DNA of 64,000 nucleotides from Ehretia macrophylla. Taxonomy: Eukaryota > Streptophyta > Magnoliopsida > Boraginales > Ehretiaceae. Position numbers and translations under genes: made by a program. Positions 23,806 through 60,974 of the stretch are shown one piece after another. The notes below the pieces were generated by a model that saw nothing but the letters and a program-made list of their open reading frames with translations, was not told the DNA's origin and did not search any database. The DNA lies in the NCBI GenBank assembly GCA_037974665.1, contig CM075773.1, positions 63,332,763 through 63,396,762 of the forward strand, in the 5' to 3' direction. Within the stretch, counting starts at the first letter, position 1. The number at the start of each line of letters is the position of its first letter.

Positions 23806-24838
23806 TATCCACTTATATTCTACCCCATCCCTCATTTTTCTGAAGAAAAAAAAGAAGAAAGGAAAGAGTAAAGAAAACCAATAAAAGAAATTGTGATTTC
23901 CATATAAAAGAATGTCTATTTGTATGTAGTACTACTCTTTATGCTTTCAATTGAGGTATGAGTGAATATATTTGTGGTGCTTCCATCGCTATTCTATTTA
24001 GGAAATACGTCCTCATGATATGTGGCATCGTAGCAGGGCTCACGTCACGCGACAGTAGGTCTCACATGCTCAAAAGATCGTTTTAAAGTGTAACCCCTCT
24101 ATTTATGTCTCAGACAAGTTATTTTATATGACTAGCTGATAATTGGGAAGCATTGGTGATGATTCTGCATCTTTTGTGTAGGAGTATATCTGTGAAAAAC
24201 AGATTCTTAGCTACTATTGTAATTGGTTTATGAGTCAATATGGCAGCTGAATCTTATTCTGCATTAGAACACATTAGCATCGAGCTGAAATTTTATTTAA
24301 TACACATCTGCTGAAGCTTTTATTGTTTTCAGTGATAGAACTTTTAATCTATCAGAATTCACAGGCTAAATTGGTGAAAACTAAAAGCAATCCATAAACT
24401 CCAACAGTATCAGAGAACAAAATTGACAACACAATTGCATTTGTAAGGAGAGTAAACCAAATGCACTAAAAACTGATCAAGTAAGTACTTTATGAAACAA
24501 AACTTTCTAAGTTTGTAATATTTATGAAGAAATACACAAAATTAGATTTTGTATTTAAAAGCAGCTGAACCCTTAATTAGGCTGCCTACGTACTTTGACA
24601 ACAAGTGATATCAAAGATCAAGCTGCACGTAGTTCTACAATTTACATCGGAAGATCATATACTATAAAAAATCTATTACAATTTAGCACTCTTCATTTCT
24701 TCATCACTGATTGTTCCTTAAGAAGCTTGACAATTTGAAGCATATCAACAAGTTGTGGAGAGATCTTAATCAGCAACTGGACTCCAATGAACCCGAAACG
24801 ATTCTGGCATGAAATTTGAAGTGTGAAGCTCTGCCGAG

Positions 24839-26185
24839 CTAAAAAGAATCTGCCTCAGGGATATCTCCTAAAAATATGCCATTCATAAAGGACATATTTT
24901 CTTCATCATTCTCTTGCAAACGTTCATATTCTACAGTAGAACTCTCTATGTCTCGGAGGAACTCAAGATTTGCTGCTGAAGCGTCAAAATGCTCCGCATT
25001 GTTTTGAACTGCTTCTTCCATGGAGCTGGTGGCAATTCCATTTGAAATATGATCAGCCTTCGTATTGCTATCAAGCTCCGCAGCGCTATCTGCTAATAAT
25101 ATGTCTTGCAAGTTGGACGCATATATGTCCATATCATCATCAACATCATCTTGCAATCTTTCAGAATGCTGGAGGCCTTGAGGCATAATAGGGTTTGCTG
25201 CAGAAGTATCAATATTCTCTGCAGGATCTGCAATAGGATGCTGTAGGTCCTCAGGCACGTGAGAATTCACTGCAGAAGCATCAACATTCACCATATCGTT
25301 TTGAATCGATTCTTCCATGGGTCTGGTGGCAGTTTCGTTTGCAGCTTCCATTACTCCATTATTCATGTGTACCTCTGCCTCTGCTTGTGACCCATTATTA
25401 GCGTACCAAGGCAATTGAGGCAACTGTTCTATAGACATGGTCGAGTCCGCTCCGAATGATGCCGTAGCCCAAAGATTTCCTTGTACCATATCTGTATCGA
25501 CACCAATTGTAACATGATGCTCACCCGGAAAACTCCATCGTGGTGTCTTCTCTTCTTGGGGAATATAAATCTCCTCTCTCGACTTTCTCTTGCCCAAATC
25601 TTGAGTATCAGCTTCTGATACAAGTATGATTTCAGAAATTTCTTGTTTCTTGAAGTTTTTCGATTCGTCCTTTGTAATTCTGCAAACAACATAGTCCGTG
25701 CTTCCAATGTCTATCAAGCCATCATCCGAAAGAGAATATTCATGCATAATCCAATGTCCTTTTCCATCAAAATCTTTCTTAGTCGACTTAAACGTGAACA
25801 TCCTTTTAGAGCCTATTTTCGTTTTCGTTTTCCCTTTCACAATATCTTTTGGCGCCGTATGTCCATGCCATTTACCACAGCCCGCTGTTCGAATAACGTT
25901 CTTATTACCCTGCCTCCCAAGCTTCGACAATTTAGTAAATACATAGATAGTCTTCTTAACCTTGCTCGAATCATCGTCACCATCAGTAACTAGGATGTTC
26001 CAAGGATCATTCTCGGTAAACAAATCCCAAGGATTTGCTTTCTCCCCGTAAAGGTCTCTTTCAACGATCCCCTCCCAAGGCAATGGCTGCCTCAAAAGCC
26101 TTCTCCTCAGGAATGATAGAAGCAATTCTTGATCCGAAGGCATGAATAGAAAACCTTCAGGAATATGAATACTACTGCTGCTCAT
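24839..26185 (-). CDS. NAC-domain transcription factor, copy 2, intact single exon
   Basis: This is a 448-residue protein from the ATG at 26185. NAC proteins are plant-specific nuclear transcription factors. The NAC domain covers about residues 7-180: IPEGFLFMPSDQELLLSFL (subdomain A), DPWNIL, YVFTKLSK, CGKWHGH (in place of the usual GYWKATG), IGSKRMFTF and WIMHEYSL, then YVVCRI. It is a divergent member. The C-terminal half is acidic and holds three related segments with the core DASAVN, DTSAAN or DASAAN, two preceded by MEE(S/A)(I/V)QN and two followed by ERLQ; this is a candidate activation region. Most NAC genes have introns in the domain, so an uninterrupted frame is notable. A GTG 36 bp upstream is in frame but unlikely as a start. 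Expression and target genes are unknown. Confidence 0.88.
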   Translation of the reverse strand: MSSSSIHIPEGFLFMPSDQELLLSFLRRRLLRQPLPWEGIVERDLYGEKANPWDLFTENDPWNILVTDGDDDSSKVKKTIYVFTKLSKLGRQGNKNVIRTAGCGKWHGHTAPKDIVKGKTKTKIGSKRMFTFKSTKKDFDGKGHWIMHEYSLSDDGLIDIGSTDYVVCRITKDESKNFKKQEISEIILVSEADTQDLGKRKSREEIYIPQEEKTPRWSFPGEHHVTIGVDTDMVQGNLWATASFGADSTMSIEQLPQLPWYANNGSQAEAEVHMNNGVMEAANETATRPMEESIQNDMVNVDASAVNSHVPEDLQHPIADPAENIDTSAANPIMPQGLQHSERLQDDVDDDMDIYASNLQDILLADSAAELDSNTKADHISNGIATSSMEEAVQNNAEHFDASAANLEFLRDIESSTVEYERLQENDEENMSFMNGIFLGDIPEADSF

Positions 26186-26742
26186 CTTTACTATTCCTAT
26201 ATTATCACCAACAAATCTCACAAATCACTCTCTTGATGTCTATAATACCGCAATAACTCACAATCTTAACTAGGTTTTGTAATGATGAATATTGTGCGGC
26301 TAGCTAGATTGGCATACATATATATACTAGTATAACTGTAACTTGTGATGCAATCTAGTATAATGCATTAGGAAATACTATACTCACAAAAGGACTCAAA
26401 TTCTTACATGGGCGGTTTGTTAATTATAAGCATTCCAGAGTCCTATCTCTGATTAACTTCTTCTTCTCTAAATTCATTCATAATTTGATACGCAAAACAG
26501 TGAAGAACCAAGAACAGATTCAATTACATGAATGTTTACAAATTATGCATAACCAACCGGAGGGCATTTTCGGGTTTTCGATCTTAAATTCAACTGCCAC
26601 ACCATTACCCTTCAATACACAAATACAAACTCACCCACGCACCTAACAAATTCCCATGGCCTACACAATTCTCTGTCGACTATCTTGGTGATTTGGTTTA
26701 TGTATCTAAATTTAGACCCTATTCTATGTTTTGTTTTCTTCA
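26186..26742 (-). promoter_or_regulatory. 5' flanking region of NAC copy 2
   Basis: This is non-coding DNA upstream of the NAC ATG, nearly identical to 5034-5594. A TATA-like run, tatatata, lies at 26319-26326, about 135 bp before the start codon. Farther upstream the flank is cut by a LINE fragment and an inversion breakpoint at 27157, so distal elements present in the ancestral gene are now elsewhere in the window. Confidence 0.35.
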
Positions 26743-26930
26743 ATTATAAGTTCTATTTATTTTCTTGATTGAATTCACTATTTGATAGAGTTTTTTTTCG
26801 TGATTGAATTCACTATCTAATACCTTTTTAACTTTTTTTTTCTTGATTTTCAATAACTTTTGTTGTTCTTTTCCTTTTTTTTTGTGAGTTTGATTAGTTG
26901 TGCGTCTTGGGTTACCATTTGTGCCAAAAA

Positions 26931-27157
26931 TTGCAAATTCTTTTCTCTTTGCAAAACTGCAACCCTTTTATAAGGTCCTTCTTACAGTCACGAAGAATTC
27001 CCCCACCTCCTGTCAATGTTGAGGTTGTAAAAGCCAACAGCTGGTTTTCTGAACTTCACAATATTAGGCACATAAGAAGGTGGTCTTTCATAAGAACAAT
27101 AGAAGGACGCTGCCAGATTTAAGTCTCCCTTCCAATGCCATCTCTTTAAAACAATGA
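26931..27157 (-). mobile_element. LINE fragment (RNase H start), truncated at a rearrangement breakpoint
   Basis: The minus strand reads KRWHWKGDLNLAASFYCSY then AVGFYNLNID, as in 5781-6852. The fragment ends at DNV (GATAATGTC), where unrelated Copia sequence starts. Confidence 0.8.
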
Positions 27158-29460
27158 CATTATCAATGGTGAGAGGCAGATCACGGAACGTGGCTTTAGT
27201 GGGAGCAACAACCATGGTAGATCAAAATCAAAGAGTAGAAAGAATATCAAATGCTACAACTGTGGCAAGAAAGGGCACTTCAAGAAGGATTGTTGGAGCA
27301 ACAAAAAGAATCCCGATGTGACAAATTCTCAGGGATGTGTAGCAACTGCACCAGATGATGGAGATATTTTATACAGCGAAGCAGCAACTGTAACAAAAGG
27401 TAGAAAGGAGCTCACTGATACTTGGATAATGGATTCAGGAGCACTATGGCATATGACTTCTCGTAGAGAATGGTTCCACACCTATGAACCTGTTTATGGA
27501 GGATCTGTGTACATGGGTAATGATCATGCCTTAGAGATTGCTGGCATCGGTACCGTCAAAATTAAAATGTATGATGGTACCATTCACACCATTCAAGGGG
27601 TACGACACGTGAATGGCTTGAAGAAGAACCTATTGTCCATTGGACAATTGGATGACCTTGGCTGCAAGACCCATATCGAGGATGGGATCATGAAGGTCGT
27701 CAAAGGAGCGCTTGTGATGATCAAGGCAGAAAAGATCGGGGTAAATCTATACATGCTTTTGGGAGATACATGGCAGGAGACAGATGTATCAGTTGCATCA
27801 GCCGGTCAAGAAGAATCAACTATAACGTGGCATCGCAGATTTGGCCACATGACAGAACGTGGCTTGAAGATTCTCGCTAAACGTAAACTCCTACCCGGGC
27901 TCAAGATAGTAAACTTACCTTTCTGTGAGCACTGTGTTACCAGTAAGCAGCATAGATTGAAATTTGGAAGATCTACTGCCGAAGCAAACACATTCTAGAC
28001 TTGATCTATTCAGACGTTTGGGAATCACCGGTTTTTTTCCTAGGAGAAGCCAAATACTTTGTATCATTTATTGATGATTACTCCAAGAGACTGTGGGTGT
28101 ATCCAATCAAGAACAAGTCAGATATGTTTCCAATATTCAGAACTTTCAAAGCGCTGGTGGAACTTGAATCCGGGAAAATGATCAAGTGTTTGAGGACAGA
28201 CAATGGAGGAGAATACACTAACGGGAGTTTCCTGGCATTTTGCAAGCAAAAGGGTATTCAGAGGCAATTTATTGTTGCACATACACCTAAGCAAAATAGT
28301 GTAGCAGAGCGGATGAACAGAACTCTTCTTGAAAGAATGAGAGCTATGTTGGAAACTGCAGGTCTAGCCAAATCATTTTGGGCAGAAGCAGCTAGAACTG
28401 CCTGTTACGTGATAAACCGATCACCGTCAACTGCAATTGGGTTGAAGACACCAATGGAAATGTAGACCGGAAAACCCGCAGATTATTCTACCTTGCACAT
28501 ATTTAGGTGTCCGACATATGTGATGTATGGTTCCCAAGAAAGAACAAAGCTAGATCCAAAATCTAGGAAATGTGTATTCTTGGGAAATGTTGATGGTGGT
28601 AAGAGGTATCGCTTGTGGGATTCTACTGCCCACAAGGTTGTCATCAGCAGAGATGTGATATTTGCAGAAGATAAATTGCAAAGTGAAGACGACAGCAACA
28701 CTTCAAAGGAGATTACTACAATACAAATTGAAGATAAGTCAGAACAAGGAGATGTTTTTTCTGAAGCTGCACCGGAGCACGAGGAACAAGAACCAGATGA
28801 TGTTAAGGTTACAGAAGTCTGACGTTCATTGCGTTAGACAACAAGACCAACTTGGCATTTAGATTTTGTCATGGCGAGCAATGCTGCATATTGTCTTCTA
28901 ACGGAGGATGCAGAGACATCTACCTTTCACGAGGCTATAAAAAGCCCCGATGATGCCCTGTGGATGATAGCAATGCAGGAAGAAATTGAAGCTCTACATA
29001 GAAACAAGACATGGGAGCTTGTTCCACTACCACCTGGACGGAAAGCCATTGGTAACAAATGGGTCTACAAGATCAAGCGAGATGGTAATGACCAAGTAGA
29101 GCGATATCGTGCAAGACTGGTGGTGAAAGGATATGCTCAGAAAGAAGGAATTGATTTCAACGAGATATTTTTTTCCTGTGGTAAGACTTACAACTATCAG
29201 AGTAGTCTTGGCCATGTGTGCTGTGTTAGACTTATATCTAGAACAATTAGACGTAAAGACGGCTTTTCTTCATGGTGAGCTTGAAGAAGAGATTTACATG
29301 CTTCAACCAGAAGGTTTTGTTGAGAAAGGAAAAGAAAACTTGGTTTGCAGGTTGACTAAATCTCTGTCCGGTTTAAAGCAGGCGCCAAGGTATTGGTACA
29401 AGAGATTTGATTCCTTCGTGATTAGCCTCGGGTACAACAGACTCAATTATGTTGCACCGT
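27158..29460 (+). pseudogene. Copia (Tnt1-like) gag-pol fragment, truncated at both ends
   Basis: It has the same family as the element at 61695-64000. In order: end of gag with zinc knuckle CYNCGKKGHFKKDC (from 27252), protease region WIMDSGALWHMTS (from 27421), the pre-integrase block TWHRRFGHMTERGL, the integrase core FIDDYSK, LRTDNGGEY and NSVAERMNRTLLE (28001-28465), then reverse transcriptase from about 28960 with RYRARLVVKGYAQK and LDVKTAFLHGELEEE. It stops at 29460 before the YVDD box. Frameshifts and stops occur, for example a TAG at 28463-28465 where Trp is expected. gag upstream of the zinc knuckle is missing. Confidence 0.9.
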
Positions 29461-29923
29461 AGAGGATTGTATTTAAATATCCCAACTGGCATATAATAAC
29501 TTTAAAGATTTACCTTATTGTCTAAGTAGCTTGTTTGCTTGTGTGAAATGAGATAAAGAATGATTGAAATATTTAACCTTTAAGTAGGTTGAATAGAGTA
29601 TAATAGAGTGGTATGATAACCAATATCCTGACTAGGGAATTCTATAATCTATTGCATGCTTGCTTGTGGACTTTTGTTGTGTTCCAAGACTCGGATGGCC
29701 TTGAGGAGTTGTTGAATGTGATGAAAAGGGAGGATGAGAACTGTTAAAGAGCTTGGTTTATGATTTTGTGAGTTTATATTTTGTGTGCAGGTAAACTGTT
29801 AGCTCTATAAATAGGGAAAACTCCGTCCATTTCCCTTAAAATTTTTGTGCCCGGGTTTGGAATTAGGTTGAGAATAACATGGTTAATAGAAGTTCCAGTC
29901 TCGCGAGGGATCGAGGTGTTACA
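29461..29923 (-). repeat. LTR fragment (Tekay-like)
   Basis: On the minus strand it begins TGTAACACCTCGATCCCTCG at 29923, very like the LTR start at 10764. It then continues with the usual ...gtcatctcctcattt-style body, but only about 460 bp remain, ending where the Copia fragment stops. Confidence 0.7.
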
Positions 29924-29944
29924 CAAAGTCTGTCCTCATCTTTT

Positions 29945-30347
29945 GGAGTAAAATGTAGCATACCCCCTTATGTTTTGTAAAAGTTGCATAACAAACCCTG
30001 TGTTTTCAAAAGTGGCATAGAATCTCTTGTGTTATCTATAATGTTGCATCATAACCCTTCTATACAATTTTTCGTTAAATTTAACGGAGAGTGATACACA
30101 CACACTTACAATACAACTAAGAATTGCAAAAATTATTAAAATACATGTTCATTGACCAAAATACCCTTATATTGTTTCTAACTTTTTTTTCACTCATCTT
30201 CTTCCTCACCACTACCACATTCCACCACTACATATCTTCACCATAAATAATTTTAGATACTCAATATTAATAATCTTTTAAAAATTCTTATAACGTATAT
30301 ATAATTTTCATCTAGTAATTGAACCTTGAGATTGAATTTTAAATTAA

Positions 30348-30395
<48 letters not shown>

Positions 30396-31333
30396 ACGAC
30401 GGATGGTATGGCATTATACATTGATATTGGCAAATTTCGTGTTGCTATCACCTGTCATCCACAATGGATGGTTTAGTTAAAAAATATATAAAATTAAAAT
30501 AGATTAACTTTTGAATTAAACCCTATTTTTTTCAAAATTTTATGACTTTAAAATGCTTATTGTCTTTGACAAAAAAAAAAAAAAACTTGTTGTCGTGTAT
30601 TACTTTGATGGATCTTCGAACTGATACATTCGTCAGTCGCTGGTAGAGGTAGTTGCAGGAAGTGGCAGAGGTAGTTGGTGAAGCTGGCTAGAGGAATGGC
30701 GGAGATGGTAGGTTGTGGTGGCTATTTTATTATAAAGGATATAGATTATTTCGAGCTTTAACAAGACAAAAGATTATTTTCAACCTAATGGTCAAGTTAT
30801 TCACATGCGTGAGAAGGTTGTGGGTTCAAATCTCTGTAGTGGCAATATATTTTTTAAATTCTACCATTTGGTACGTGGCATTACTTTATTGGTCGGGCTT
30901 GAATCTCAAAACGACGTCGTTTGGGTCATCATCTTTAGCACTGCAGTGTGTTGATCCATGAAAAAACCTTTAAAATTTTATATCTTTCTCAATTCTTGTT
31001 GAAATCGCATTAAACTTGAAGCATTAGATTCGTAATTTCAAGTAGAATTAAAAGTGATAAAATTTATATGAATTTGTTTTAATCAAAATTTCATTAATGT
31101 GATGCATTATAGTGAAGAAATTTGAAAAGTTAAATAAAAATACAAACAAAAATAATTTAATGGGGATAATTTTGTCTTTTATAGTTTATGACAAAACAAA
31201 TTTAACAGAAGTTCATATTGGGGAAAGTGTGCAACATTATGAATAACACAGAGGGTTATACGCCACTTTTGAAAATACAAGGTTTATTATACAACTTTTG
31301 CAAAACACAAGGGGGTATGATACATTTTACTCC
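29945..31333. mobile_element. Non-autonomous DNA transposon with long TIRs, 1.39 kb
   Basis: The left end ggagtaaaatgtagcatacc and the right end (reverse complement ggagtaaaatgtatcatacc) form inverted repeats of at least 75 bp with further similarity inwards. The flanks carry atctttt (29938-29944 and 31334-31340). A related uninterrupted sequence at about 53515-53535 shows the empty site. The 7-bp duplication does not settle the superfamily (hAT is 8 bp, Mutator about 9 bp). No transposase frame is visible. Confidence 0.8.
30349..30392. repeat. (TG)n(TA)n microsatellite
   Basis: About eight TG units are followed by about fourteen TA units, inside the TIR element. Confidence 0.9.
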
Positions 31334-31651
31334 ATCTTTTTCAAAGAAAAATATTTTTACAAACTAAGAAACAAATCTCAGTAAGTGGTAACCCCCAAAA
31401 AAACTTCTTGGGACCTTTAAAATATTCTTATACGTTAGATAGTCATATTATCATAGTTCATAAATATCATATATTCAAAAATGATGAAGTTCATGCAAAA
31501 ATCATAAGATTTCATGCCTAGAATCATAAAAGTTCATGTCAAACTAAATTCATATGCCAAGAATTCATAGTGCCAGAAACCAAAGACAAATTCATATGCT
31601 ATGGTATACATGAGAAAAAAAATTACACTAATATAATATGCTATGCTATGG
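31334..31651 (+). repeat. LTR-like fragment hosting two DNA transposons
   Basis: The sequence from caaagaaaaatatttttaca through ccaagaattcatagtgccag matches 53527-53770 closely. Both are probably pieces of one LTR family whose start may be TGTCACGCCCCCAAAA at 48715. The TIR element 29945-31333 interrupts it, and the Mutator-like element at 31661 adjoins it. Confidence 0.5.
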
Positions 31652-31660
31652 GTTATATAA

Positions 31661-33349
31661 GGGCAAATTTCACAAATAGTCCCTATTGTTACCCTTTTGT
31701 CTCAGTTTAGTCCCTATTGTTCTATTTGTCTCAATTTAGTCCCTATTGTTTGCAAAAAAATCTCAATTTGGTCCCTTCCGTCAAATAAGGGTTAAATCTA
31801 ACAAAAAATTGGTCACGTGCACCGCACGTGACCACGGTCTCAGGGGCAATTTTGGAATATAACAATAAAAGTTCAATTTAGTCTTCAATGTTTTGAAAAA
31901 ATTTTATTTGAGTCCTCAATGTTTTAAAAAAATTTTAAATAAGTCCTCTATGTTTTAAAAATATTTTAAATAAGTCCTCAATGTTTTAAAAATGTTTCAA
32001 ATAGGTCCTCAATGTTTTAAAAATATTTCAAATAGGTCCTCAATGTTTTAAAAATGTTTCAAATAAGTCCTCAATGTTTTAAAAATATTTCAAATAAGTC
32101 CTCAATATTTTGAAAAGATTTCAATTAAGTCTTTACTTTGTTCACATTGATGAATGAACATGGTATGAACAAAGTTAGTCAACCCAGTGGTTTTGTGGAT
32201 GGGTTACAAATGAGTTATGACAGGACTGATGGATATTTTTTTGTAACTTTGTTCGTATTGATGAATGAACATGCTATGAACAAAGTTAGTCAACTCAGTG
32301 GTTTTTGTGGATGGGTTACAAATAGGTTATGACATGACTGATGGATATTTTTGTAAATAGATGGGATTATGACAGGATATGTAAAGATGATTTTTGTATG
32401 TGGATGGGACTATGACAACTAAATGTAATGACTTTAACCATATTTAATGACTTTTTTTATGACAGGTTATGGGATTATGACAGGCTTTTATGATTGATGC
32501 TTTGATGATATTATTGTTATGTTTTTTTTGGATTAAGGATGAAGAAACATCATTTTTTCTAATGTTGAGGTGTTTATGATTGTTTTCATAACAGGTATTC
32601 AAATGAAAAATGCTAAAGGTCTGTAGTTGGTAATGTATATTGTGTCATTATTCTGCCTATTTGTTTACGTATTCTGACTTCCCTAATTTGGTTTTGATGA
32701 ATTCGAATTTGGTTTCGCGGACGCTATCTTAGTTATCTATCACTTATTAGTAAAAAGCTAACTCGACTAAATTTTTTGAGCTACATCCATCAAGACAAGT
32801 CTATTTCCTCCTTGTTAACCACCCAAACCTTGTGTGTTTAAGAGATAGGGGACCGTAAGGGTTTATTTACAACTTTATAGAACAGTAAGGACTTAATTGA
32901 AATCTTTTCAAAACATTGAGGACTTATTCGAAATATTTTTAAAATATTGAGGACTTATTTAAAATATTTTAAAAATATTGAGGACCTATTTGAAACATTT
33001 TTAAAATATTGAGGACCTATTTAAAATATTGAGGACTTATTTGAAATATTTTTAAAACATTGAGGACTTATTTGAAATTTTTTTTAAATATTGAGGACTC
33101 AAATGAAACTTTTTCAAAACATTGAGGACTAAATTGAACTTTTGTTGTTATATTCCAAAATTGCCCTTGAGACCGTGGTCACCTGCGGTGCACGTGACCA
33201 ACTTTCTGTTAGATTTAACCCTTATTTGACGGAAAGGACTGAATTGAGATTTTTTTGCAAACAATAGGGACTAAATTGAGACAAATGGAATAATAGGGAC
33301 TAAATTGAGACAAAAGGGTAACAATAGGGACTATTTATGAAATTTGCCC
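31661..33349. mobile_element. Mutator-like non-autonomous element with long TIRs, 1.69 kb
   Basis: The ends gggcaaatttcacaaatagt and (reverse complement) gggcaaatttcataaatagt begin TIRs of about 450 bp that stay highly similar throughout. The flanks repeat gttatataa (31652-31660 and 33351-33359), with one extra base at 33350; a 9-10 bp duplication and long TIRs fit Mutator-like elements. Each TIR contains a tandem array of about 30-bp units (agtcctcaatgttttaaaaa) at about 31880-32115 and, inverted, 32885-33125. No transposase is present. Confidence 0.85.
32135..32355 (+). repeat. 111-bp tandem duplication in the Mutator-like element core
   Basis: Two units starting near 32135 and 32246 share actttgttc, attgatgaatgaacat and gtggatgggttacaaa. 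The duplication makes a short repetitive open frame (32138-32332) with no known domain. Confidence 0.75.
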
Positions 33350-33359
33350 AGTTATATAA

Positions 33360-33654
33360 TGCAAAGTATGACAATATAATTAAATATACTAATCAAATGG
33401 TGTATATTTAATCCAATCACCATGAGCTATAGCTTTAAATTAATTAACATACAACATAGGAACTAATAATTATAAGAAAGGTATATGTCTTATCATTTGC
33501 CTCTACAAGTAATTATAATATTGATTATTACATATGACAATATGATTACTTATCATATAGTGTGTAAATAAAATTGTTAGTAAATATATCCAAATTTCAA
33601 TACATCATATATTTCACAAAAATAAATAATAGTATTTGAGTCTTATTAACTTTA
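33360..33654. other. AT-rich spacer, nothing recognised
   Basis: No open frame, repeat or transposon end could be identified between the Mutator-like element and the LINE tail. Confidence 0.5.
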
Positions 33655-36080
33655 TTTGTTTGGCAAAACGAGAGGAACTTCCCTGTGGGGTTTTATTAAT
33701 TATCAAAAAAAGAAGTACAAGGTTGGAGGGGGACCAAACTTGACCTGCACTGGAGGGCGGGGAATTGAAGCATGTCCTACCGTCCTAACTACTCTAGAAG
33801 AGGTACAAGCCACCTCTTCTTACAAAGATCCTAATCAAGCTTCTTAATTGAGTTGTTAAGTGGAAAGATGTATAACATCTTTGCAAGAAACAACTCAATT
33901 AATAGCAACAAGCAAAAAGATACGAAACTGAAAAATTACAATAAAAGCAGTTAAAAGGAACCTATAATCTAAATTGAGGAAGAGCTGCTTTATCCAGATG
34001 GATCAAACCTCAAAGCCTTTTAAAGCTATTTGTATCCTCAAAAACTTGAAGGCTCGTAACAGAAACTCCAAGATTAGCAAGAAATCAGTTGGCTAGTTAC
34101 CTTATCTAAAAATGTGAGAGATCATGGCTCTATATTCTTTCAGGAGTTTTCTAGCTACTTCTATTTCATAACATATATCATATGACCCTTGTTTTTGTTA
34201 ATTTAGCAAGTGATTCCATTAAACTCAACAAAATTCATTACATCATGACAAAGAAACCATGGCACCAAACCATACTAGTCATTCACAAGTTGGTAGCCAT
34301 CAATATTCTAAAAAGTACCAATACGTGTGTTAGTTATATTTATCCTATATTTATGTACATTCCTGATTCTATACTTTACAACGAACTTCATTTCCTCAAA
34401 AACACACTCTTCATTAAGAGAAACCTGGTCATGAAGCCTTTTGTTTCTTTCACTCCAAAGAAAATAAAATGTGGCCGAGAACAGATATTTAAAAACTAGT
34501 GATTGGAGCTAATCACACTTGCAAACTTCAATCAGCCACTCAAGAACATTATTCCAAACAATTAGGAGTCGAGAACTACAAGAGTACCTCAGACCCTTAA
34601 GCCAAATCTTCTTCGAGAAACTACAGGAAAAGAAAATATGATCTCTAGATTCATCTAATTCACCACACAGCAGGCATTTAGGATTATCTTGTAAACCCCA
34701 GCTATTAAGTCGTTGTTTAGTAGGAAGACGATCCAAAATAGTAACCCAAGCAATAAAACTATGACAAGGAACATGTTGTTTAAACTAAACTAGATGGTAC
34801 CAAGGGACAGAGTTACCTCGAGCTCGAATGCCATCCCAAGTATGGTACAAGCTGAATTTACCGTAAAGGCTCAAAGTCCAAATCAGTTGTCCCGTCTAGT
34901 AACCTCCATAATAAAGGACTGGGCTTGTCTAACAATGGAATCAATCTCAACATTCGAAGAGAATGATCTTGGCAGCATAATAACATCAGCGATTGACAAA
35001 TCAATACTAATACCAAACTCAAGCACAACATCAAAAGAGAATCTATCAAGCAAAATACCATCCTCATGCCAAAGATATTTCCTAAAAAAAGTATTAACTC
35101 CATTGCCAAGTCTATGCCGAACAAGAGATCTTGCAATATTTCTAACACTCAGGAGCTTTCTCCACCCCCAAGCCACATTGATAGGGGTATCAATATCCTC
35201 AAATATTTTGCCCTTAAGAAGAACAGATCTTACCCAACGAGACCAAACAAAATTAGACTCATGTAATAAGGCCCAAACTTGTTTTAGCAGAAGAGAAGTA
35301 TTTAATTCTTCAAGCTGACGGTTTCCAAGTCCCCCTTCCTTAAAAGGTTTCATAACTAATATCCAAGCAACTTTAGCACGAGCCTAGCTAGCGGCATCCC
35401 CGTTCCAAAGAAAATGAGCAAATTTACTCTCTATATCTTTAAGAGTACCAATCGGCAATATCAACATGCTAGACAAAAAAAAATGGATCCCAATCAGAAC
35501 TAATTTAATAAGTTGAAGGCACCCAGCATATGAAAGAGATCTAGTAGCCCAATGATTGATTATACTCAACACTTTATCCACAAGTTCTCTGCAGGACTGC
35601 ATACCAAGTCTACCCGTGATTAAAGGGAGACCAAGGTACTTAATCGACAAAGAGCCCTCCTCAAACTCAAGAATCCGTAGAATCTGATTCTTAAGTTGAT
35701 CTCTACAATCCGCAAGAAATATGTTGCTCTTGCAAGGATTCATTTGTAAACCAAACATCCGATAGAAGAGCCTGAGTGAAGCTTTGATACAAGACACAAA
35801 TTAAACATCAGGTTTAGAAAATATGAGCAGATCATCAACAAACATAAAGTGGTTCAGCTTGAGTTTATGACAACTGGGGTGAAATAAAAACCCCCTTTTG
35901 AGAGCAACTTTGAAGAGGATGCAGGACAAGATTTCCATACCAATAACAAAAAAGTAGGGGGATAAAGGGTCCCCCTACCTAAGACCTTCAACTCCGTTGA
36001 AGAATCCCACAAGTTCACCATTAGCCACGATCGAGTACCTTGGAGAGAAAATGCATACTTCAATAAGCTGAACAAAAAAG
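33655..36080 (-). pseudogene. LINE (L1-type), 5'-truncated, degenerate
   Basis: On the minus strand the reverse-transcriptase region reads NGELVGFFNGVEGLR, a stop (35975-35977, where Gln is expected), then GDPLSPYFFVIGMEIL, and FVDDLLIF (catalytic box, about 35823-35842). It continues with KYLGLPLITGRLG, GGLGNRQLEELN and a C-terminal zf-RVT domain with CLLCGE and RDHIFFSC (34509-34736). The 3' untranslated part runs to about 33655. Upstream endonuclease sequence is absent. Multiple frameshifts make it inactive. Confidence 0.85.
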
Positions 36081-49485: not shown

Positions 49486-50278
49486 TCATGGACTTTCATC
49501 AACTGTGGTTCTCAATGAAATTGAAGATCCAAAGCCTTCAAAGTTCACTGTTTTTGGCCATAAAAGCTTTAGCTTGCATCTCCCGCTCCACAAAGTTGGA
49601 TCTTCCACATTTCGGCGTCTCTTGCGATGAGACCTTGTACTCGAAGGACTAGCAAAAGAAGATGTGTCCATCATCTTGTTCATGCTCACTTCCACATCAA
49701 AATCATCAACTGGTGTGGAGTCAACTTCAATAGCTTCTTCCAAGTTGATGTCAGTAAAGGACTTTGCAAAGTTGCTCGTCGCCATATCCTTGCCAACTAC
49801 CAAAGTCATCGCATCATACATCTTAATCTTCTTGTTCAAGTATTTTTCATGATTTGGATGAGCCTGTAATGAAAATAAAAGTACGAAGCAAACATCAAGA
49901 AACATAAATATATATAGAGTTTTATATAAAGGGTCGAAATATTACCGCCACTACAACTTCATACACATGTTTGTCACATGTGATCATCTTCATGTTGTCA
50001 TCCCAACTGAAGCCACTTTTTGCTTTGAGTTGGGTAATTATCTTCCATTCTTTTTTGATAGTCCTCAAATGATTTTCAACATGAATAACTTGACAATCAA
50101 CATCAAATTTATCAACAGTTGCTTTGGCAACATTTACAAAGCTTTCGGTCTGGAAAGTGGATGAAGGTTTGTTTCTCTTCATTGCCTCCTCAACCAATAA
50201 TTCCATAAGTGTGTGGGACATTGGCTTTGACCACCTGAATTATTTAGCTTTACCCTTTCCATCCTTTGATGTATTCAT
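49486..50278 (-). pseudogene. Harbinger Myb/SANT-like DNA-binding protein
   Basis: Exon 1 starts at an ATG at 50278 (MNTSKDGKGKAK), meets a TAA near 50240, and continues open with FRWSKPMSHTLMELLVEEA to 49946. An 82-bp intron (49864-49945, GT...AG) joins VYEVVVA to AHPNHEKYLNKKI, and exon 2 ends at 49486. The segment with GFSWDDNMKMITCDKHVYE and HPNHEKYLNKKIKMYDAM matches the Myb/SANT-like proteins of PIF/Harbinger elements and related host proteins. In that family this protein binds DNA and helps the transposase enter the nucleus. Without the stop the protein would be about 255 residues. Translation could restart at the ATG at 50221. Confidence 0.8.
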
Positions 50279-50553
50279 GACTACATACAAACATTTAAGG
50301 TTGAGGCAAAATGAATAATCAAACAACCAATCCAATTTATAACAAACCATAACAGTCTATAGTAAAAAACCATAACAGTCATGCACTTGACCAATAATCC
50401 AATTCATCCAATTCATAATTAAACATAATAGTCCATAATAAACATCAATTCATAACAAACCATAGAAAAAAATCTAACAAACTAGTCAATACAACAATAT
50501 ACAAGAAGAACATTACATAATAGTAAACAATCCGATATATGACAACTCATGCA

Positions 50554-51770
50554 TTAATTATCTAATGTATTGTTGTAATCATTCCACATCATCGTTGCTA
50601 TCATTTCTCTTCTTGCCAACGATTCTCGGTTTTCTTCCCTCTCCTGTCTTTGACTTAATGTAGGCCTACGACTTTCTATGCGAACATTTTCTTCAAATTC
50701 ATCCATTATGAAATCATGTGGATCAATGACCATTACAAGGTTATGAAGGATGCAACTTCCCAAAACAACATCAACTTGTGTTTGGTATCACCAATGCGGT
50801 TAAGCATCAATTACACGAAAGCGTTTCTTCAATATTCCAAACCTGCGTTCAATGGTGGTCCTCAACGAGGAGTGATGAAGGTTAAATAACTCTTTCTCAT
50901 TTTTAGGTGGATGTTCACTAAATTCCGTGAGACGATATCTAACACCACGATAAGGGGAAATGATTCCATTACGGATGCCATATCCAGCATCACCCAAGTA
51001 ATACTTGCCTACAATTAAATAGGAAATTGTGTAATTATTTCCAATTTCATATGTATATATATACGCATACACGATTACAAGTCTATTTCTAATACCTTCA
51101 GGAATCTTAAGACCGCCTTGCCTCGATAGTGCATCAGTCAATACACGTGAGTCATGTGCACTTCCTTCCCAACCAGCAAAAACATAAGTGAATCTTAAAT
51201 CAAAAGTGATTGCTGCCAAGACATTTTGTGTTGTTCCATCTTTACGACCACGAAATTTGCCTTGAAATTCAAATGGGACATTTGCATCAACAAGAGTTCC
51301 ATCTATTGCTCCCACACAATCCTATTGATAAACATTTCTAATCAAATTTTTAAGAAGATTAATGTAAAAGGAAAATGCCATTTTTAATAAAACATAAAAC
51401 TTACCTTAAAAAATGGATAAAATCTTGTGTTGTTTGCAATTTGGGAAGGTGTTGAAAGCTCTGGGTCTTTTATGACATACTTGTACAACTTTAAAATTGC
51501 AGTCAACACAATCTTAAAGTATCGATGGACAGTCTCCACTGATCGGTAAAATCTTCCACTAATAACCCAAAACCTAAGATTGTGTCCTAATATTTGTAGG
51601 AACATCATAACTTGTTCCTTAACAGACAAATTTATGGTTGGGCGCAATAAATTATTTATAGTTAGAAGATCACAAAGTTTATTAAAAACTATAGGTTTCA
51701 TACGAATTTGCTCAACACAATGAGTGTCAGAGCGACACAATATATTGTTCATATAAAAATCTCCCTCACA
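50554..51770 (-). pseudogene. Harbinger DDE transposase
   Basis: There are three exons with clean introns of 83 bp (51322-51404) and 87 bp (51009-51095). Exon 1 holds the N-terminal region (CDLLTINNLLRPT, VKEQVMMFLQILGHNLRFW). Splicing gives FKDCVGAIDGTLV (first catalytic Asp), GWEGSAHDSRVL (second Asp), PEGKYYLGDAGYG and TIERRFGILKKRF (third catalytic residue, Glu). A single TAA at 50800-50802, where Gln would fit, separates this from the open tail VLGSCILHNLVMV to 50554. The true N-terminus may lie further upstream; an ATG near 51896 (MDHRKKIHVM) is followed by stops before joining, so the start is unsure. It cuts and pastes the element at TAA/TTA sites. Confidence 0.9.
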
Positions 51771-51896
51771 CTCGGCATGTAATCGAGGTTTTCTACGTAC
51801 AGACTATTTACGCTTAAGTTTTCTTAAATAGACATGACAATAGAGCTAGAGCAATTGCAACCATAGATATGGTCATCACATGAATTTTTTTCCTGT

Positions 51897-53297
51897 GATC
51901 CATAGAAGCTTTCTGCAGCTGCATAATAATATATAATGATGACAACTATTACTACACAGTGTAATAAAAATCAATAAAGAGTTAGTTTTATAACATAGAT
52001 GTAACTAATTGCAATATACAGTGAAAGAGCCTTCAGAGAATATTTCAAAAACAAAGCTATTAAAATCATAGTTGAAGCACATACTCCATGGCATAAGCCA
52101 GTCTTAACTAGGTACCATTATTTGGATATCTCATTTAACATACTAATGAGCCATCAAATAGAGAAAAGTACAGCTAACACAGTCACCAGTTTCGATAAAG
52201 TAAAACAATATTGCACGAAAAGAATAAAAACAAGCTTGTCAAAATGCAAATTGCAACAAGCACAAAGCAACAAGAAAATACACATTCTACTTCCTTAAAA
52301 AGCAAATCAAAACAGACAATGTAAACAAGATCCATCTTCATAAGATCAAATTTCCATTATCACAATCATTTCACTAACTTCAACAACAAAACATAAAATT
52401 AACAACCTTTGCAAAAATAAAAGTTGAAAAAAAAAAACACAAATGAGCAAATCATTATATATTTGAATGTACTAAAAAAAATTCCATTCTCATACCTTAT
52501 TGAAACTCTACCACAACTTTCAAACCACAGATCTCAGAAATTCCATAACCACACCAAATCAAACTCTAATAGTAAAAAAGAGCTCTAACACCACATTTTC
52601 AAGACATCCAAATCAACACACACCTCAAAATAGCAAATTATTGAACTTGCAACCTTTAACTTTCACTTAAATCAACAAATGTGATTCACCAAATCCAACC
52701 TAAGATGGTGCCTGTTGACAACACCACAATCAATCGTCTCTTTCACCAACACAAAAATATATATATATATGCTTGTGAAAAAGAAAAAGAAAAAGAAAAA
52801 ACAATGAAAAAGTAAAAAAAAAACATGGATTGCAAGACAATGTTGTTAACTAACCAAAAAAAAAAATCATAAATAAAAAAATATGCTTGTGAAAGCTATG
52901 AACATTGGCATCTTTTAAGAAGAAAAAAAAAAAGAAATCAGAAATATATAGAGACAATGTTGTGAAATTTATAAAATAATAATAATAAATAAATAAAACA
53001 TACATTGATCTAGATCTGATATTGTGGTAGGAGAAGGTGAGAGAGAGAGAAGAGAGAGACGGTGAAGGCAAAAGCTTTAGCAGCCGCACTTTTTTATGAG
53101 ATGAGAGAGAAAACGGTAGGTAAAAAGTGAATGCACAACTGATGTAAAATATTTTCTTCTCCCATTTTAACTACAACTTTTCCTTTGACTGAAAATATTT
53201 TACCATTGACTATATTTTTCGTCCTACCAAACACCGTAAAATGTTTTATGTGGAAAACATTTTACGGGAAAATATTTTATGGCAAACAAACGGAGCC
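51897..53297. other. Harbinger 5' non-coding region
   Basis: AT-rich DNA between the transposase and the right end, with an (AT) run at 52759-52770, A-rich tracts and a gaga-rich stretch at 53037-53062. No gene is apparent. It should contain the transposase promoter, but no clear motif can be singled out. Confidence 0.5.
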
Positions 53298-53818
53298 TAA
53301 ATGAAAATTTTAAAATAACAATTATATATATGCTACGAGCAATCAGAGCATCTAATTCTAGCATAACGTAGTGGAATACTTCTTCCAAAGTCTCAAACCA
53401 ACCTAATAAATTAAAACTCATAAGTCTAAGTGAAATAATCAATTTATTCCTAACTAAGAAATTCAAAAGAGTTGTATTAGCTATTCATCAAGGTTGTCTC
53501 AGCCCCAAGCCAAAACCAAAGTCTATCCTTACCTTTTACAAAGAAAAACATTTTTACAAAATAAGAAACAAATCTTAGTAAGTGGTAATCTCCCAAAAAA
53601 ACTCTTGGGATCTTTAAAATATTCTTATATGTTAGATAGTCATATTATCATAGTTCATAGATTTGACAATGATGAAGTTCATGCAAAAATCATAATTTTT
53701 AATGTATAGAATAATAAAAGTTCATGTCAAACCAAATTCATATGCCAAGAATTCCTAATGCCAGAAACCATAGTCAAATGAATCCAATATCCAAGTTTAA
53801 GTAAGCATTTATCCTCTA
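53298..53818 (+). repeat. LTR-like sequence, right of the Harbinger insertion
   Basis: It continues the sequence interrupted at 48810. The part 53527-53770 closely matches 31341-31600. It ends where the inverted block begins. Confidence 0.55.
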
Positions 53819-54942
53819 CCATCGAGTAAAAAATATTGGCAATTATCCTCCTGCATAAGTTGGAAGTATTGACATTTATCCTTCATCATAGAGTCAGAAG
53901 TATTGACATTTATCCTCCGCCAAAGAGTCAGAATTATTGACATTTATCCTCAGCCAACAAGGGGTTGGGAAACATACATTATAATTAAAAATTTTAATTT
54001 TACAGCGGAATTAATTACATGTATCCGTTTATGGTTATTCACACAGATTTGAAACATATGACAAATTTAATCTAATTAAATTTAATGTGTAGTTCTAGGA
54101 TTACCTCTAAATGCAAAACAATAGAAGATTATGAGACGAGATTCCCAAGTGTGAAGCCTCCAAGAGTAATCCACATGAGATTCGCGCAACCAATTAGATC
54201 TAGCCCTAACTAGAGCTTTTAGAGAAAACCCGTATTATTTTGAACTGAAAAAGAATTGTATGCTAGCTTTTTCTGTGTCATAATATTCCTTTATATAGTA
54301 ACTTCTCTCGACCTACGATCATACATGGGCCAGTCTAAATTGACCAGACTTGGACTCTGCAATAATCTGATCAATCATCTAATTACTACGAGTCCATTAT
54401 ATTAATATTATGACAATCCTAAAATTAATTTAATCTTTTTTCTAATCTAATTTATTTGTTAATTTCTTTTGTGTGTGACATCTCGAGTTCATAATTAATT
54501 AGCATCGGATATTAATCTAAGTAATATTTAATTAGAACCCTTTCTAATTAATTCACAAATCGCGAGTGACACCTAGTAATATATCGCAATTATCCAATTA
54601 ATGATGAAGTGCAAGTACACAAACCCTTTTAGAGTAATTTCCACGCAATCGAATCCTTATGTCTAAATCATCGTGATTGATCCAGAGTCATGGATACTGT
54701 CACGCTCCGGGCCCAGACTCTCAGGCCCGCATGCGCGACTAGTGTTGTAGGCATGAGAAACAACTACCTAAGCCCTCTTTTCTACTGGTCCAAAATGGCT
54801 AACCCAAGTTATTCTTTATACCCACAATACCCACTTATAAACCACATAATCACACTATATTTCAGCGATGTGGGATATTATACACACCCTCCCCTCCCCC
54901 GGTTAAGGACCTAACATCCTCATCAGAGGCACATAAACCCAG
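53819..54942 (-). repeat. Inverted counterpart of the LTR-like region 19008-20122
   Basis: It includes the same 34-bp minisatellite (about 53819-53950) and TATA region (about 54290-54300). Only point differences and small indels distinguish it from copy 1. Confidence 0.7.
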
Positions 54943-57264
54943 TGTAACGCCCCGAACCCAACCCCACGCTACAGGTCAAGTCCGGGCCCGTCACTCAGAC
55001 AGAGTCTCCTCTGTACTGTGGACTAAATTGGTACCTGTGATAATCACATAAAATGCCTGAACCACAACAACCACTTCATTCAATCTAACTTCCAAGTTTG
55101 ACAGAACCAACCAAATTCACAAGGCCATCCGAGCCTTTGCATAACAAAAATAGAAACATACAAGCATGCAGGTTCAATTCTAACTTAAACTTTCCAGTAG
55201 TATGACATGGTTAAAACAAGCTAATTATCACCCCCAAGCATGCAACAACCGAGTTAGGTCTAGTATAATCTATTATATGCCATTCTACTTTATATTCAAC
55301 ATTCAAGAATATAATTAAGTTACAACTTTCCTAGCAAATATACAAGACCTCAAGGTCTCAAAACATAACAACTAACATCAACTCCAAGCAAACTGCACGT
55401 ATGATCAACCTTATCACACAGGAATCAAGGGTTCTGATCTATGGGCACCTCTTCTTCTTCTTCTATTGCTATCAGCTGGGGGTTCACCTCAGCCTCTCCT
55501 GAAACATGTCAAATGAAGCGTGAGCAACAATGTTGCCCAGCGAGGGAGATGATGCAACATACCGTAGCGTGCATAATGATATACAAACACAAGAAGTCAT
55601 ATATATACAACATAAACCAACAAGGTTAAATAGCCAAGTAATTAACCATATTAAAAAGGATATGGTTCCACTTCAAGTCTTCAATCACAAGGCACGAGCC
55701 ACGAACTTCACGCAAGTGCCGGCAAACCCATACACTAACAAGTTGGGATACTCTAGATGTATCCCGATCCTACGACCCTTTCTCCTGAGGTAGGTCCATA
55801 TGCCCAGCAGGTAAACCATGCCTCTAGGGTAGTGGAGTATGCTCAGCGATAAAGGAAATAGGCACCATGGTAATCGAGGGAGCACGGCAAACCCGACGCC
55901 ACCTGTGTTTCTCGACACTACCATGTCCGAAAAGGTTGCGCAACCCCGAGACAAGTCCACAAGCATCAAAATATCAAATAACACGTAAAAGGGTCGACAA
56001 AGTAGGCCGCCCTCACATATAAACACAATATAAGCTCACATAAGCACGAAATAGCTTTAAAGTCTCAAAAGAAGCAATCAAAATAATTTTTTCCCACAAT
56101 CTACTCAAATAGATCAATTATACTATAGACAATCAATATAATGCATGACAACACAACAACAAGCTTTAGATGCGTCAATAGAAGCCTAGTACCACTTTTC
56201 CCCTTTCTTTAACCTATCTTTTCTTCTCCTATGTGCATTTCAAGATTCTCAAACCATATCCTACTCATACTACAACCCTAATTAAGCCAAAAGACACCTA
56301 TTAAGATCATAAAAACCTATTTTAGAAGCTAAATCTCGGGAAGGCCCCGAGCGGGTTTTAACTACAACTATACTATCCGAACCCCGATTTCGCGTAACGA
56401 AAGCACCAAAAGTGCTTCCATACCCCAAGGATACCTAATCCAAAGCCCAAACGTGCCCGGATTGCACAACGAGAAAAGTCATCTTTTTAAAGTCGACTAA
56501 TTTTGCAATTTAGCTCGGTTTGGGGTGATTCAACTTCACATGGCCTCCCAACTAACTTCATTAGGGTCTAGAGAATCTAATTGATGCCTCAATTCATTCC
56601 AATTAGCACATTTATTCAAAACCCTAAATACAAGCACTATTTATCATCTCTTTCATAACATTCATGCTTTCAACCATGGATTATGCTATCAAACTATAAA
56701 ATTTTACTCTATAGGCTCTAATAAACACATATAAAGCATTCATAACAAGTATTGTAGCTATAATCAACAAATCAAAATTTTCAACATATGAGCATAAACT
56801 CTGAAAGCTATAAAATGCAACTCCCTCACAATTTATGATGTGTAGAAGCTTGTTGAGGAATCCTAGGATGCTCAAACAACTCCAAGATCCAAGCCAAGAG
56901 TCAAGCTAGCAATATTGTTGAAGAAATTTTCCTCTTTTTTCTCCTTGAAGTGGTCGGCCAATGGGGGGACACAAAGGGAATTCTTTGCTTTGTTTTATGA
57001 GTTGTTTTTTGTTAAATGGTGATAACTTAATATATAGATATATAGGTGCAATAAGTTGTGGTCAAATACTACATAAAACTTGGTCAATTGAGCTTAATTA
57101 CTAATCAAATACTAACTAAGTCAAAACTAAGGTTGTTACGTACGTAACACTATTCAAATAGTGTGAAAACTATTTTCCAAACACATGCTTCCAAGCTCGA
57201 AAGTCCAAAATAACAAGGTCTCAATTCCTTTTATATGTCATATGACTTAGGAAAAATATTAAGT
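54943..57264 (+). repeat. LTR B, second copy, 3' end deleted
   Basis: It starts TGTAACGCCCCGAACCCAAC at 54943 and continues uninterrupted through the point where the LARD-like element sits in copy 1 (empty site near 56253-56268). It stops at the 686-bp deletion junction. A (CTT)n run lies at about 55448. Confidence 0.65.
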
Positions 57265-58349
57265 GGATATACTTTCATACGTGTTTGTGATTTGGTTATT
57301 AATGCTTATGGAGTGATATTGCTTATTCTAATGCTAGAGGGGCAACCTACTTTGTTGTCCCATCGTTTTAAGTGCTCATTGAATGAATGTTTTAATGATT
57401 GATTGCGTGATATCATAAGGTTGCAACCTTCTATTGAGGCACGATTGTGTTGTGTCTCCACTTGGCGGCAGCAGGCTTGCCAATGGTTACATGACCTCCG
57501 CGACCTATTCCCTCACTCACTTGGTCGGTGAAGGCATTGAGGTGTTTGGTCGTAGGATTTTGGGGTACATCTGGAGTACATCCACTAGTGATATAAAGGA
57601 TTGTCTACATCGCAATCACAAAGGGGCAAAGAAGTGGGAGTGATAAGGTTGGAATGAAATCGTATCCTTTACTTGAGTGTTTATATAGTTTTATATTACT
57701 TGATTGAGTGCTTTCATGCTTCTTGTTATTGTCTAATGCCTACTTGTATATTTATTGCTTTGATACATGTTACTTGGCATATGTGCATCATGAAAAGGTT
57801 TTCAAAAGCCTCCCCATACCCCCCCTCACTGAGCTAGTGGTTGATCACCCCATTTATTCAACAATTTTATGTGAAGCCAAAGTAGCCCCTCAAGAAGTAA
57901 ATTGAAGATAATTTGCTTGTTTACTTAAAAGGTTGGCATGTGTTTTGGCTATGATCTAGGAATGTGGATTATGATGTTTTGCAAGTTGTATAGCTCGTTT
58001 TGCAACAAAGTTTCATTGTGCACATGTTGGATCATAGCTTTTGACTTGTAGAAATTAAATAAGCTAGTTGTAAGTTTATGAACTACTTTGGAAATATAAC
58101 TAAAGCACGTTTAGCTTACTTTTGGACTTGGAATTGTAAATGTTGCTAGGTTTGCATAGACTTAGTATGGAAAAATGTTGTGTTTAACAGATATGCATAA
58201 ACAGAGTTTCAAGATGTTGTCTTGTGTATTTGTTGTTGGCTTTGAGCATAATTGTACAGGTGTTGGAATGTCCGTAATACAGAGAAGACTCTGTTCGATT
58301 TTTGTCGAGTTCAAACTTGACTTCTAGGAAAGGGTTGGGGGTGCTGACA
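57265..58349 (-). repeat. LTR A, second copy, truncated
   Basis: This is the inverted match of about 7979-9067; its start, TGTCAGCACCCC on the minus strand, is at 58349. The open frame 57434-57643 is conserved with copy 1 but is LTR sequence. Confidence 0.6.
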
Positions 58350-59442
58350 TGGGGAGGGGGGGGTAGAATGAGGGGATGGGGTGTTGATGTGGGATGGGGT
58401 AGGCTGGGTAGAGTTGATAGGGGGTAGGGTGGGGGGGGGGTAGAGGGTAGCTAACGGGGTGTGGGGTGGGGGGTGGGGAGTGGGGGGGCTGAGTGGCTAA
58501 TGGTGGGGGGGGAAGGGGGGGAAAGGGGGTGAGGTGAGGAAAATGATGATTTTTTATTTTATTTTTTTTGGATGAAAAGAATAGGAGGAGAGAGAATAAA
58601 GAAGATAAAAAAAAATGTATAATATAAGGGTAAAAATGTGATTTTACTAAAATTTTTAACACTGATAGTTTAAAAGAGATTGAGGGGGAAGGTATGTCAT
58701 TTTTTAAAAATCGTAGGGGAATTTTTTATAGTTTTGCTAACACAGGGGAGCGGGTTGATATACAGTAGAATCTCTTTAAATTAATACTCGATAAATTAAT
58801 AATCTATTTTAATTAATAAAAATGTCCGATCCCGACTGGGACCAGTGTAAAAAGTTGATAAATTTGATAAAATTATAAGATAATACATTTAAAAATTTTC
58901 ATTTGTATTTTATTGACCCAAATATTTCATAAATTAATAATTAACTAAAAAATACATAATAAATTGGCTATGAGGTTTTCTTAAAGTATGAATCAAGAGT
59001 AGCTTGTCATTTGTTGAACTTCAAATCTAGTTGAATCTCATATTTAATTATTTAAAGAGAAAAATTGAGATAATCCTACAAGGATTAGGATACAAGATTA
59101 GAGAAATTAGTTCTCATCCTAATCCTACAAAGACTTGGATACTAGATTAGGAAAACTTTGTTCTAATCCAACTAAATTAAAATTTATCTTCTATTCTGAT
59201 TACGTATCTTTTCAAATTGGACCGAAAAAATACAAGTCACTTTTCAAAAAAAGACATCATAATCATAATATGTTTACTATAAATTCAAAACAATTAAAAA
59301 TATCTCTATTAATTAATAGTTATTAATTTATCGATAAATTAATATCTCGCTAAATTAATAGAATTTGGTGGTCCCAACGCTATTAATTTAAAGAGGTTCT
59401 ACTGTATATGAGTTTTACAGGGGAGTTGAATGATATTTATCC
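58350..59442 (-). mobile_element. Unclassified transposon end with G-rich tract, hosting a MITE
   Basis: This is the inverted match of 7546-7978. The G-rich tract runs about 58351-58545 and differs in length from the C-rich tract of copy 1. The MITE 58763-59404 interrupts it. Confidence 0.45.
58763..59404. mobile_element. Pogo-like MITE (Emigrant/Lemi type), 642 bp
   Basis: The ends read CAGTAGAATCTCTTTAAATT and, from the right, CAGTAGAACCTCTTTAAATT; the first 24 bp differ at one base. The element is flanked by TA (58761-58762 and 59405-59406). Copy 1 of the block shows the uninterrupted site (near 7580). The TIR style CAGTAnAACCTCTnTAAATTAATA is that of plant Emigrant MITEs and the pogo-like Lemi elements of the Tc1/mariner superfamily. 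No transposase is encoded. Confidence 0.9.
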
Positions 59443-60137
59443 TTTTATTTATATGTCCACACCTGTCATTTTGCACATCTTTTAAATCTAAATATCAAGG
59501 ATAATTTGGACTTTTTGGTGTCTACTTTGTCCATATTCTGACCAGCTTTGGCTTGTGTCAGTCACTGGCTCTTTCACTTGTCTTGTCATTTTCGCTACAT
59601 TTTTGTCATAGCCAGAGAGAAAAGTTTAGGGATTAAGTGCTATATATAAAGACATTAAAGTTAATAAATCTTAAATTATTTTCATAAATGTCCTATTAAT
59701 CTACATTCTTGACAAATCTTAAATTAGTTCTTCACCTGAAACAGATCAATCTAGCCATGAGCAAATTGCAACTGATTAAGTACTGATAAAGTGACAACTA
59801 TGACTAAACGATGATGTTAGTTTAAACGGAACAAATTAGAAGACAGTGTTACCAATTCAAAATTCAAAACCGCTTGAGAAAATAATTCCAGCACTGGCAG
59901 AAGCATAATTTACACCTCAAATCATATCTTCCAAATTTCCAGTCTGCCCAAGATAACTTGGCACAAATGGTAACCCAAGATACACAACTAGTCAAATTCA
60001 AAAAAAAAAAAAGGAAAAGAACAATACAAGTTATTGAGAATCAAGAAAATAATAAGTTAAAAACGTATCAAAAAGTGAATTCAATCAAGAAAATAGAGCT
60101 ATATCAAATAGTGAATTCAATCAATAAAATAAAAAGA
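59443..60137 (-). other. Inverted counterpart of the NAC distal upstream region
   Basis: It matches 6853-7545, including direct repeat b at about 59957-60135. In copy 2 this DNA has been separated from the NAC gene by the inversion. Confidence 0.6.
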
Positions 60138-60974
60138 ACTAATAATTCAGCGTAAGGAGACCCCATATCTCCAAGCCTTTTTATTATTGTTGCTAAATAT
60201 TTATCCAGGCCGTCAATAAATTATTCTCTAATTTCCCAGCTTTAAAGTATAAGACTGGCTCTTTTTTCTTTGTTACTCACCTCTCATTTGCAGATGACAT
60301 AATCATCTTCTCCAATGGCAGCAAAAGTGCTATAAAAAAGTTGATGAATTTTCTGAATCACTATGAACATGTTTCTGGATAGCAAGTCAACAAAGACAAA
60401 AGTGGTTTAATTGTGGACAAAAAAGTTCCTAGCTCTAGAATTGGCATCATAGCTGGTGCTTCAGGTTACAAGCAACAACAATTTCCATTCAAATATCTTG
60501 GAGTACCCCTTTACAAAGGTGCTAAAAAGTCTGCCCTTTTTGATGAGTTTTTTCAGAAAATTAACAAGAAGCTCATAGGTTGGAAACTAAAAACCTTACT
60601 CCCAAACAAATACTACAAAGAAGATTGGGAGCCGTTGCCATTCCCCTATTTGAGACATTAGGCCTTTTCAAGCAAGTATGAGTTCGTTGACCGCGTAAGG
60701 GCCATCCATCTTGATGACGAATTCCAAGCGAAAACATCAAAGAATTATTTGAGTAGATCCGTGTATTGTCAAATCTCTTTCAATTGAGAAGCTTGCACTT
60801 AGGAATACAGGGCGAGGATTATCAACAGTCCCAAGCATCCACTCCTCCATGCCTTGTTATTTGATGCAGATAATCCCTCCTACCAAGGAAGTTTTTCATA
60901 AAATTGAAAGACTTTTCAACAAATTCCTTTGGGGAGACACAGTTGATTCCAAAAAAATTGCATTGGACTTATTG
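60138..60974 (+). mobile_element. LINE fragment, truncated at a rearrangement breakpoint
   Basis: It reads SFADDIIIFSNGSKSAIKKL (about 60284-60343), then FPFKYLGVPLYKGAKKSA and finally IALDLLG or, in another frame, LHWTYWDNV. It ends at GATAATGTC, followed directly by Copia-1 sequence. It matches 6010-6852. Confidence 0.85.

Follow-up and report, generated by a model that had tools for sequence, protein, structure and literature searches.

Inversions formed by end joining and inversions formed from staggered breaks have both been described (PMC6861252, PMC12368964), and in a poplar tandem array several cuts led to inversions and losses (PMC10460964). The joints of chromothripsis, as characterised in PMC6371609, are of the end-joining type. 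Here we describe a rearrangement inside a NAC gene array of Ehretia macrophylla, at a repeat unit called H3, which is a new instance of an already known kind of event. The window, the whole stretch of DNA analysed (64,000 nucleotides, C10:63332763-63396762), is best explained as part of a multi-break rearrangement within this array and as containing two of its three joints.

The assembly comprises 1.58 Gb in 20 contigs, and the window sits inside a NAC/LINE array spanning C10:63.14-64.005 Mb. A 505-bp LINE query taken beside junction J1 gave 42 listed matches, 41 of which are in the array, and at least 36 of these 41 are LINE copies of at least 300 bp; the remaining match, at C10:58.20 Mb, is the single outlying copy among the matches listed. 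The array has a higher-order structure in which an H unit and the three smaller units ('a') after it are repeated together, the units being 97-99% alike in our sister comparisons, and copies of CopiaA and CopiaB occur across it in both orientations. Unit types were assigned from identities, and the RT half of the 'a' unit at 63703737 is not among the matches listed. A sequence-only reading of the window had recognised a tandem duplication of two copies, which understates an array of this size. The frame at 24839..26221 is identified as a NAC gene by its NAM domain (Pfam), and Pfam also supports CopiaA as a Copia element. We take the LINE to be one from our own reading of its translations and of the motifs in them, two of its frames having returned no Pfam family. 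CopiaB is presumably also a Copia element, on our reading of its translation and its motifs, one frame having returned no Pfam family. On these grounds the foreign sides of the junctions in the window are Copia-like, as the sequence-only reading had it.

Self-alignment of the window placed the first copy of the NAC block at 2751-20125 and divided the second between a direct part (23806-27154) and an inverted part (60980-53816). The two parts are complementary and meet at copy-1 positions 6007/6011, which bears out the earlier description of a second block in two pieces. The gap opposite copy-1 positions 10764-17668 reflects an insertion in copy 1 and not a missing piece, because this stretch is an LTR element, flanked by TTGGG on each side, and its empty site is seen in the inverted part. 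The parts are thus real, but the two copies represent different unit types; distances to copy 1 are 69/3247 for the direct part and 253/6473 for the inverted part (p 2e-6).

Several smaller features accompany these blocks. The LTR element has 2.7-kb LTRs (109/2627 differences) separated by only some 1.6 kb, and is also inserted in a sister at C10:63225730-63232679. Unit-specific insertions of about 0.65 kb are found at 9070-9751 in copy 1, flanked by TTAA, and at 58763-59404 in the inverted part, where the inverted termini start CAGTAGAA. The LINE copies that were read all carry one old internal deletion, which brings the RT side straight onto the RNase-H side. This scar was considered as a cause of the break and rejected, because the unbroken copies read carry it too and the majority of copies show no break at this place.

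Two sister units on the same chromosome, H1 and H2, show the uninverted order, which the sequence-only reading had wanted looked for; both lie in the 200 kb of sequence read leftwards of the window. Window positions 23806-27154 correspond to 63137660-63140712 in H1 and are followed there by 60980-27158 in reverse; in H2, positions 1-27154 correspond in several aligned pieces to 63214915-63242154 and are again followed by 60980-27158 in reverse (Table 1). The LINE is unbroken in both units, and CopiaA runs on through its 5' part and LTR to CopiaB. Relative to these closest sisters the segment 27158-60980 is therefore reversed, as had been proposed. Within the H2 segment about 9 kb are additionally duplicated (C10:63257614-63278077), a duplication that H1 and the window lack.

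The two halves of the broken LINE were compared with the other copies. The half in the 1.5 kb left of J1 (L1) differs from H2 at 7/1491 sites (0.47%) and the RT half at J2 (L2) at 11/1575 (0.70%), H2 being the nearest of 9 and of 8 copies, respectively, and both trees pair H3 with H2. Since both are nearest to H2 among the copies compared, the halves probably derive from one unit, H3. The direct part (15/3348) does not differ from the RT half (11/1575) in its distance to H2 (p 0.29). Positions 49593-60980 are farther from H2 (155/11353, 1.37%) than are positions 23806-27154 (0.45%; p 3e-6), and our guess is that gene conversion in the NAC part produced this unequal distance. In the left-side comparison H1 lies at 5.1%, mostly owing to one 500-site stretch; by distance, unit L042 is the nearer of the two. 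Among the matches listed, 30 of the 36 RNase-H copies of at least 300 bp have an RT half within 15 bp, and the one at J2 is the only one of 31 RT entries to lack an RNase-H half. At a substitution rate of about 7e-9 per site per year, the H2/H3 distance would place their split at about one million years ago, with the rearrangement later, a figure that gives the scale only.

At base level, J1 joins the LINE to CopiaA through three inserted bases and J2 joins it bluntly to CopiaB. The unbroken sisters read TTTAAAACAA-AGT-TTATCCC at the LINE break, where 3 bp are missing. The sequence-only reading placed the end of both parts at one LINE point; this stands insofar as they meet there, but the word GATAATGTC given as the end is not LINE sequence. 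Nor are the bases thought to be shared with the LINE common to both sides, as GATAATG is CopiaA and TGTC is CopiaB, and the LINE gives GATAA only. Set against the unbroken parent sequences, J2 and the distant junction Z each have 0 bp of homology and J1 has a 3-bp insert, which speaks against the microhomology-mediated joining that had been suggested. J1 and J2 both carry the 9-mer GACATTATC, in inverted orientation, and this word is absent from the unbroken LINE. Such a word was shared in 0.0375% of simulated independent joins under a loosened criterion, which scored the observed case 9 after the first criterion had scored it 0. J1 and J2 may therefore not be fully independent. A head-to-head fusion of CopiaA and CopiaB preceding a 34-kb inversion was entertained as the origin of the 9-mer and rejected, because Z joins the CopiaB half to unit sequence; a pattern search of the genome gave 0 such fusions.

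The sequence to the right of 60981 is inverted array, reaching C10:63732495. This is not what a simple two-junction inversion of 34 kb, as first read from the sequence, would leave: the inverted order persists for another 339 kb, up to a third junction, Z. A search with the CopiaB 5' part located this half at C10:63732496-63733211, stopping at window-equivalent 46429. In the 340 bp read at Z, 195 bp of H-type unit sequence are joined bluntly to the CopiaB 5' half; their identity is 98.5% with H1/H2 and 89-92% with other copies. The CopiaB 3' half at J2 starts 8 bp beyond the 5' half at Z, and as only these 8 bp are missing, J2 and Z hold the halves of one CopiaB break. In H1 and H2 the ends at which CopiaA and CopiaB broke do not lie next to each other. 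Of the markers tested, 25/25 between J1 and Z are inverted and 35/35 outside are forward.

The H-type side of Z lies 4144 bp past the CopiaA break in H2 and 4156 bp past it in H1. A query of 1001 bp, of which 969 bp came from the lost stretch, gave 50 listed matches and among them no extra full-length copy of this part of the missing 4.1 kb at 98% identity or above; the three full-length matches listed at that level are H1, H2 and C10:63436970, where the sequence runs past the break. When both segments are turned back by coordinates, the series H-a-a-a-H-a-a-a-H continues with a-a-a-H. The restored H3 spacing is 15,306 bp, compared with 15,330 bp in H1, which is not independent evidence because it follows from the alignments.

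Other candidates for the far end were tried. The first position proved to be an ordinary forward unit, and the CopiaB at 63654971, which had looked broken from the matches first listed, is continuous. The CopiaA 5' part, sought at the far junction, was rejected there because Z shows unit sequence; at C10:63439 and 63613 kb, CopiaA elements continue across the break point without interruption. J2 as a mere deletion inside an inverted unit was likewise rejected, since it fits the unit order worse and the LINE half at J2 groups with H2.

Table 1. Positions of the array features and junctions in the window, with strand and basis or remarks.
Feature	Position	Strand	Basis or remarks
Forward array, colinear with H2 (C10:63214915-63242154)	1..27154	+	Ends in RNase-H side of H3 LINE (L1)
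Copy-1 LINE, same place unbroken: RNase-H side directly joined to RT side	5865..6300	-	
NAC gene frame of H3 (NAM domain)	24839..26221	-	J1 about 1 kb upstream of start
Junction J1 (C10:63359919): 3-bp insert TGA between LINE (to 27154) and CopiaA (from 27158)	27155..27157	.	Sequence letters
Segment S of unit H3, 33,823 bp	27158..60980	-	Inverted relative to H1 (63140716-63173452) and H2 (63242158-63283524)
CopiaA fragment A1	27158..29448	+	Cut in gag at J1; 3' end at 29448 older, common to H1/H2
CopiaB copy inside S, comparison standard	45713..46779	+	Unbroken where the J2/Z CopiaB is broken
NAC/LINE block of H3, RT-side half, ending in L2	53816..60980	-	Self-alignment
Junction J2 (C10:63393742/3): LINE (L2, to 60980) and CopiaB (B1, from 60981), joined bluntly	60980..60981	.	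Sequence letters
Second inverted segment, start; 338,753 bp, reaching C10:63732495	60981..64000	-	Alignment, markers
CopiaB at J2 with CopiaA' inserted	60981-61692		CopiaA' LTRs 61695-62266 and 66448-67019 (beyond window)

We consider it likely that four breaks were followed by three joins, with two adjacent segments flipped in place and 4.1 kb lost. The breaks would lie in the LINE of H3 (L), in the CopiaA gag of H3 about 33 kb downstream of L (A), in unit sequence 4.1 kb beyond A (Y) and, about 339 kb past Y, in a CopiaB (B). The 33.8-kb segment from L2 to A1 would have been joined, flipped, to L1 to give J1, and the 338.8-kb segment from Y to B1 would have flipped alongside it, so that L2 met B1 at J2 and Y met B2 at Z, while the 4.1 kb between A and Y were lost. 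To judge from the 195 bp at Z, Y would have belonged to H3. The lack of shared bases at the joints, the losses of 3 and 8 bp and an insert of at most 3 bp indicate that double-strand breaks were probably repaired by non-homologous end joining.

The same three final joints could result from two successive inversions, a flip of 339 kb and then one of 33.8 kb that re-used the first joint and deleted 4.1 kb, and breakpoint reuse is known in Drosophila (work cited in PMC6861252). The second break would have had to fall no more than about 8 bp from the first joint, as the CopiaB divided between J2 and Z misses only 8 bp, and this history appears unlikely to us. We infer a single event for all the joins, because two events need exact re-use of a joint. 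Complementary LINE halves and an inverted S would equally be left by one inversion of 34 kb in an array that is forward elsewhere, but the array right of J2 is inverted up to Z and the other half of the J2 CopiaB lies at Z, not beside CopiaA. That account can hardly be credited, and is already contradicted by Z if the assembly is correct there.

The likeness of the units in a highly repetitive array also invites the suspicion of an assembly artefact. Misassemblies usually switch within long identical stretches; the joints here have no homology, the complementary halves miss only 3 and 8 bp, and no N occurs in the 200 kb checked, making an artefact very improbable. Ectopic recombination between inverted CopiaA or CopiaB repeats could have drawn on the copies that exist in both orientations, but unrelated sequences meet at all three joints and homologous inverted repeats do not stand at both ends, so that its chances are negligible and the joint sequences already contradict it.

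The four-break rearrangement resembles the end-joining inversions of PMC6861252 and PMC12368964 in its unrelated joint sequences, few-base losses and lack of long inverted end repeats, and here too the segments are reversed against the ancestral order, as seen in H1/H2 and in the markers, at joints without extended homology. It differs in having two adjacent segments, three joints and a 4.1-kb loss, where those cases have one segment and two joints. The 9-bp word inverted at J1 and J2 recalls staggered-break inversions (the same two sources); unlike in these, the word is absent from the unbroken LINE, and no break-site DNA is duplicated in inverted form, the LINE and CopiaB having lost 3 and 8 bp and gained none.

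As with the Cas9-cut NRX1 array of poplar (PMC10460964), several breaks fell in one tandem gene array and fragments were flipped, some being lost. There the cuts were made in genes by guide RNAs over an array of about 100 kb, whereas here they are natural, lie in transposons and unit sequence and cover about 373 kb. Clustered breaks on one chromosome, end-joining joints, fragment loss and little copy change are shared with chromothripsis and chromoanagenesis as outlined in PMC6371609. In contrast to these, there are only four breaks and three joints, and the two retained fragments kept their order, with orientation alone changed. A more specific version, which we offer tentatively and rather doubt, is a natural, inherited local shattering in a single event, with four breaks, two fragments flipped and one lost, in which the ends were processed together and the J1 insert was copied from the new J2 joint, which would account for the 9-mer common to both. 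The literature searched contained no natural plant case with this architecture, and we make no claim of its absence from print.

The history of rearrangement is usually hidden in repeated arrays; here unbroken sisters match the broken ends almost to the base, and an event of a known kind is unusually well resolved. What looked like a small inversion in a 64-kb window is one end of a 373-kb rearrangement. Large gene arrays can thus be rebuilt by end joining, besides unequal crossing-over. The H3 NAC gene would also have gained a new neighbouring sequence, starting about 1 kb upstream of it, and changed expression of this gene may be a consequence.
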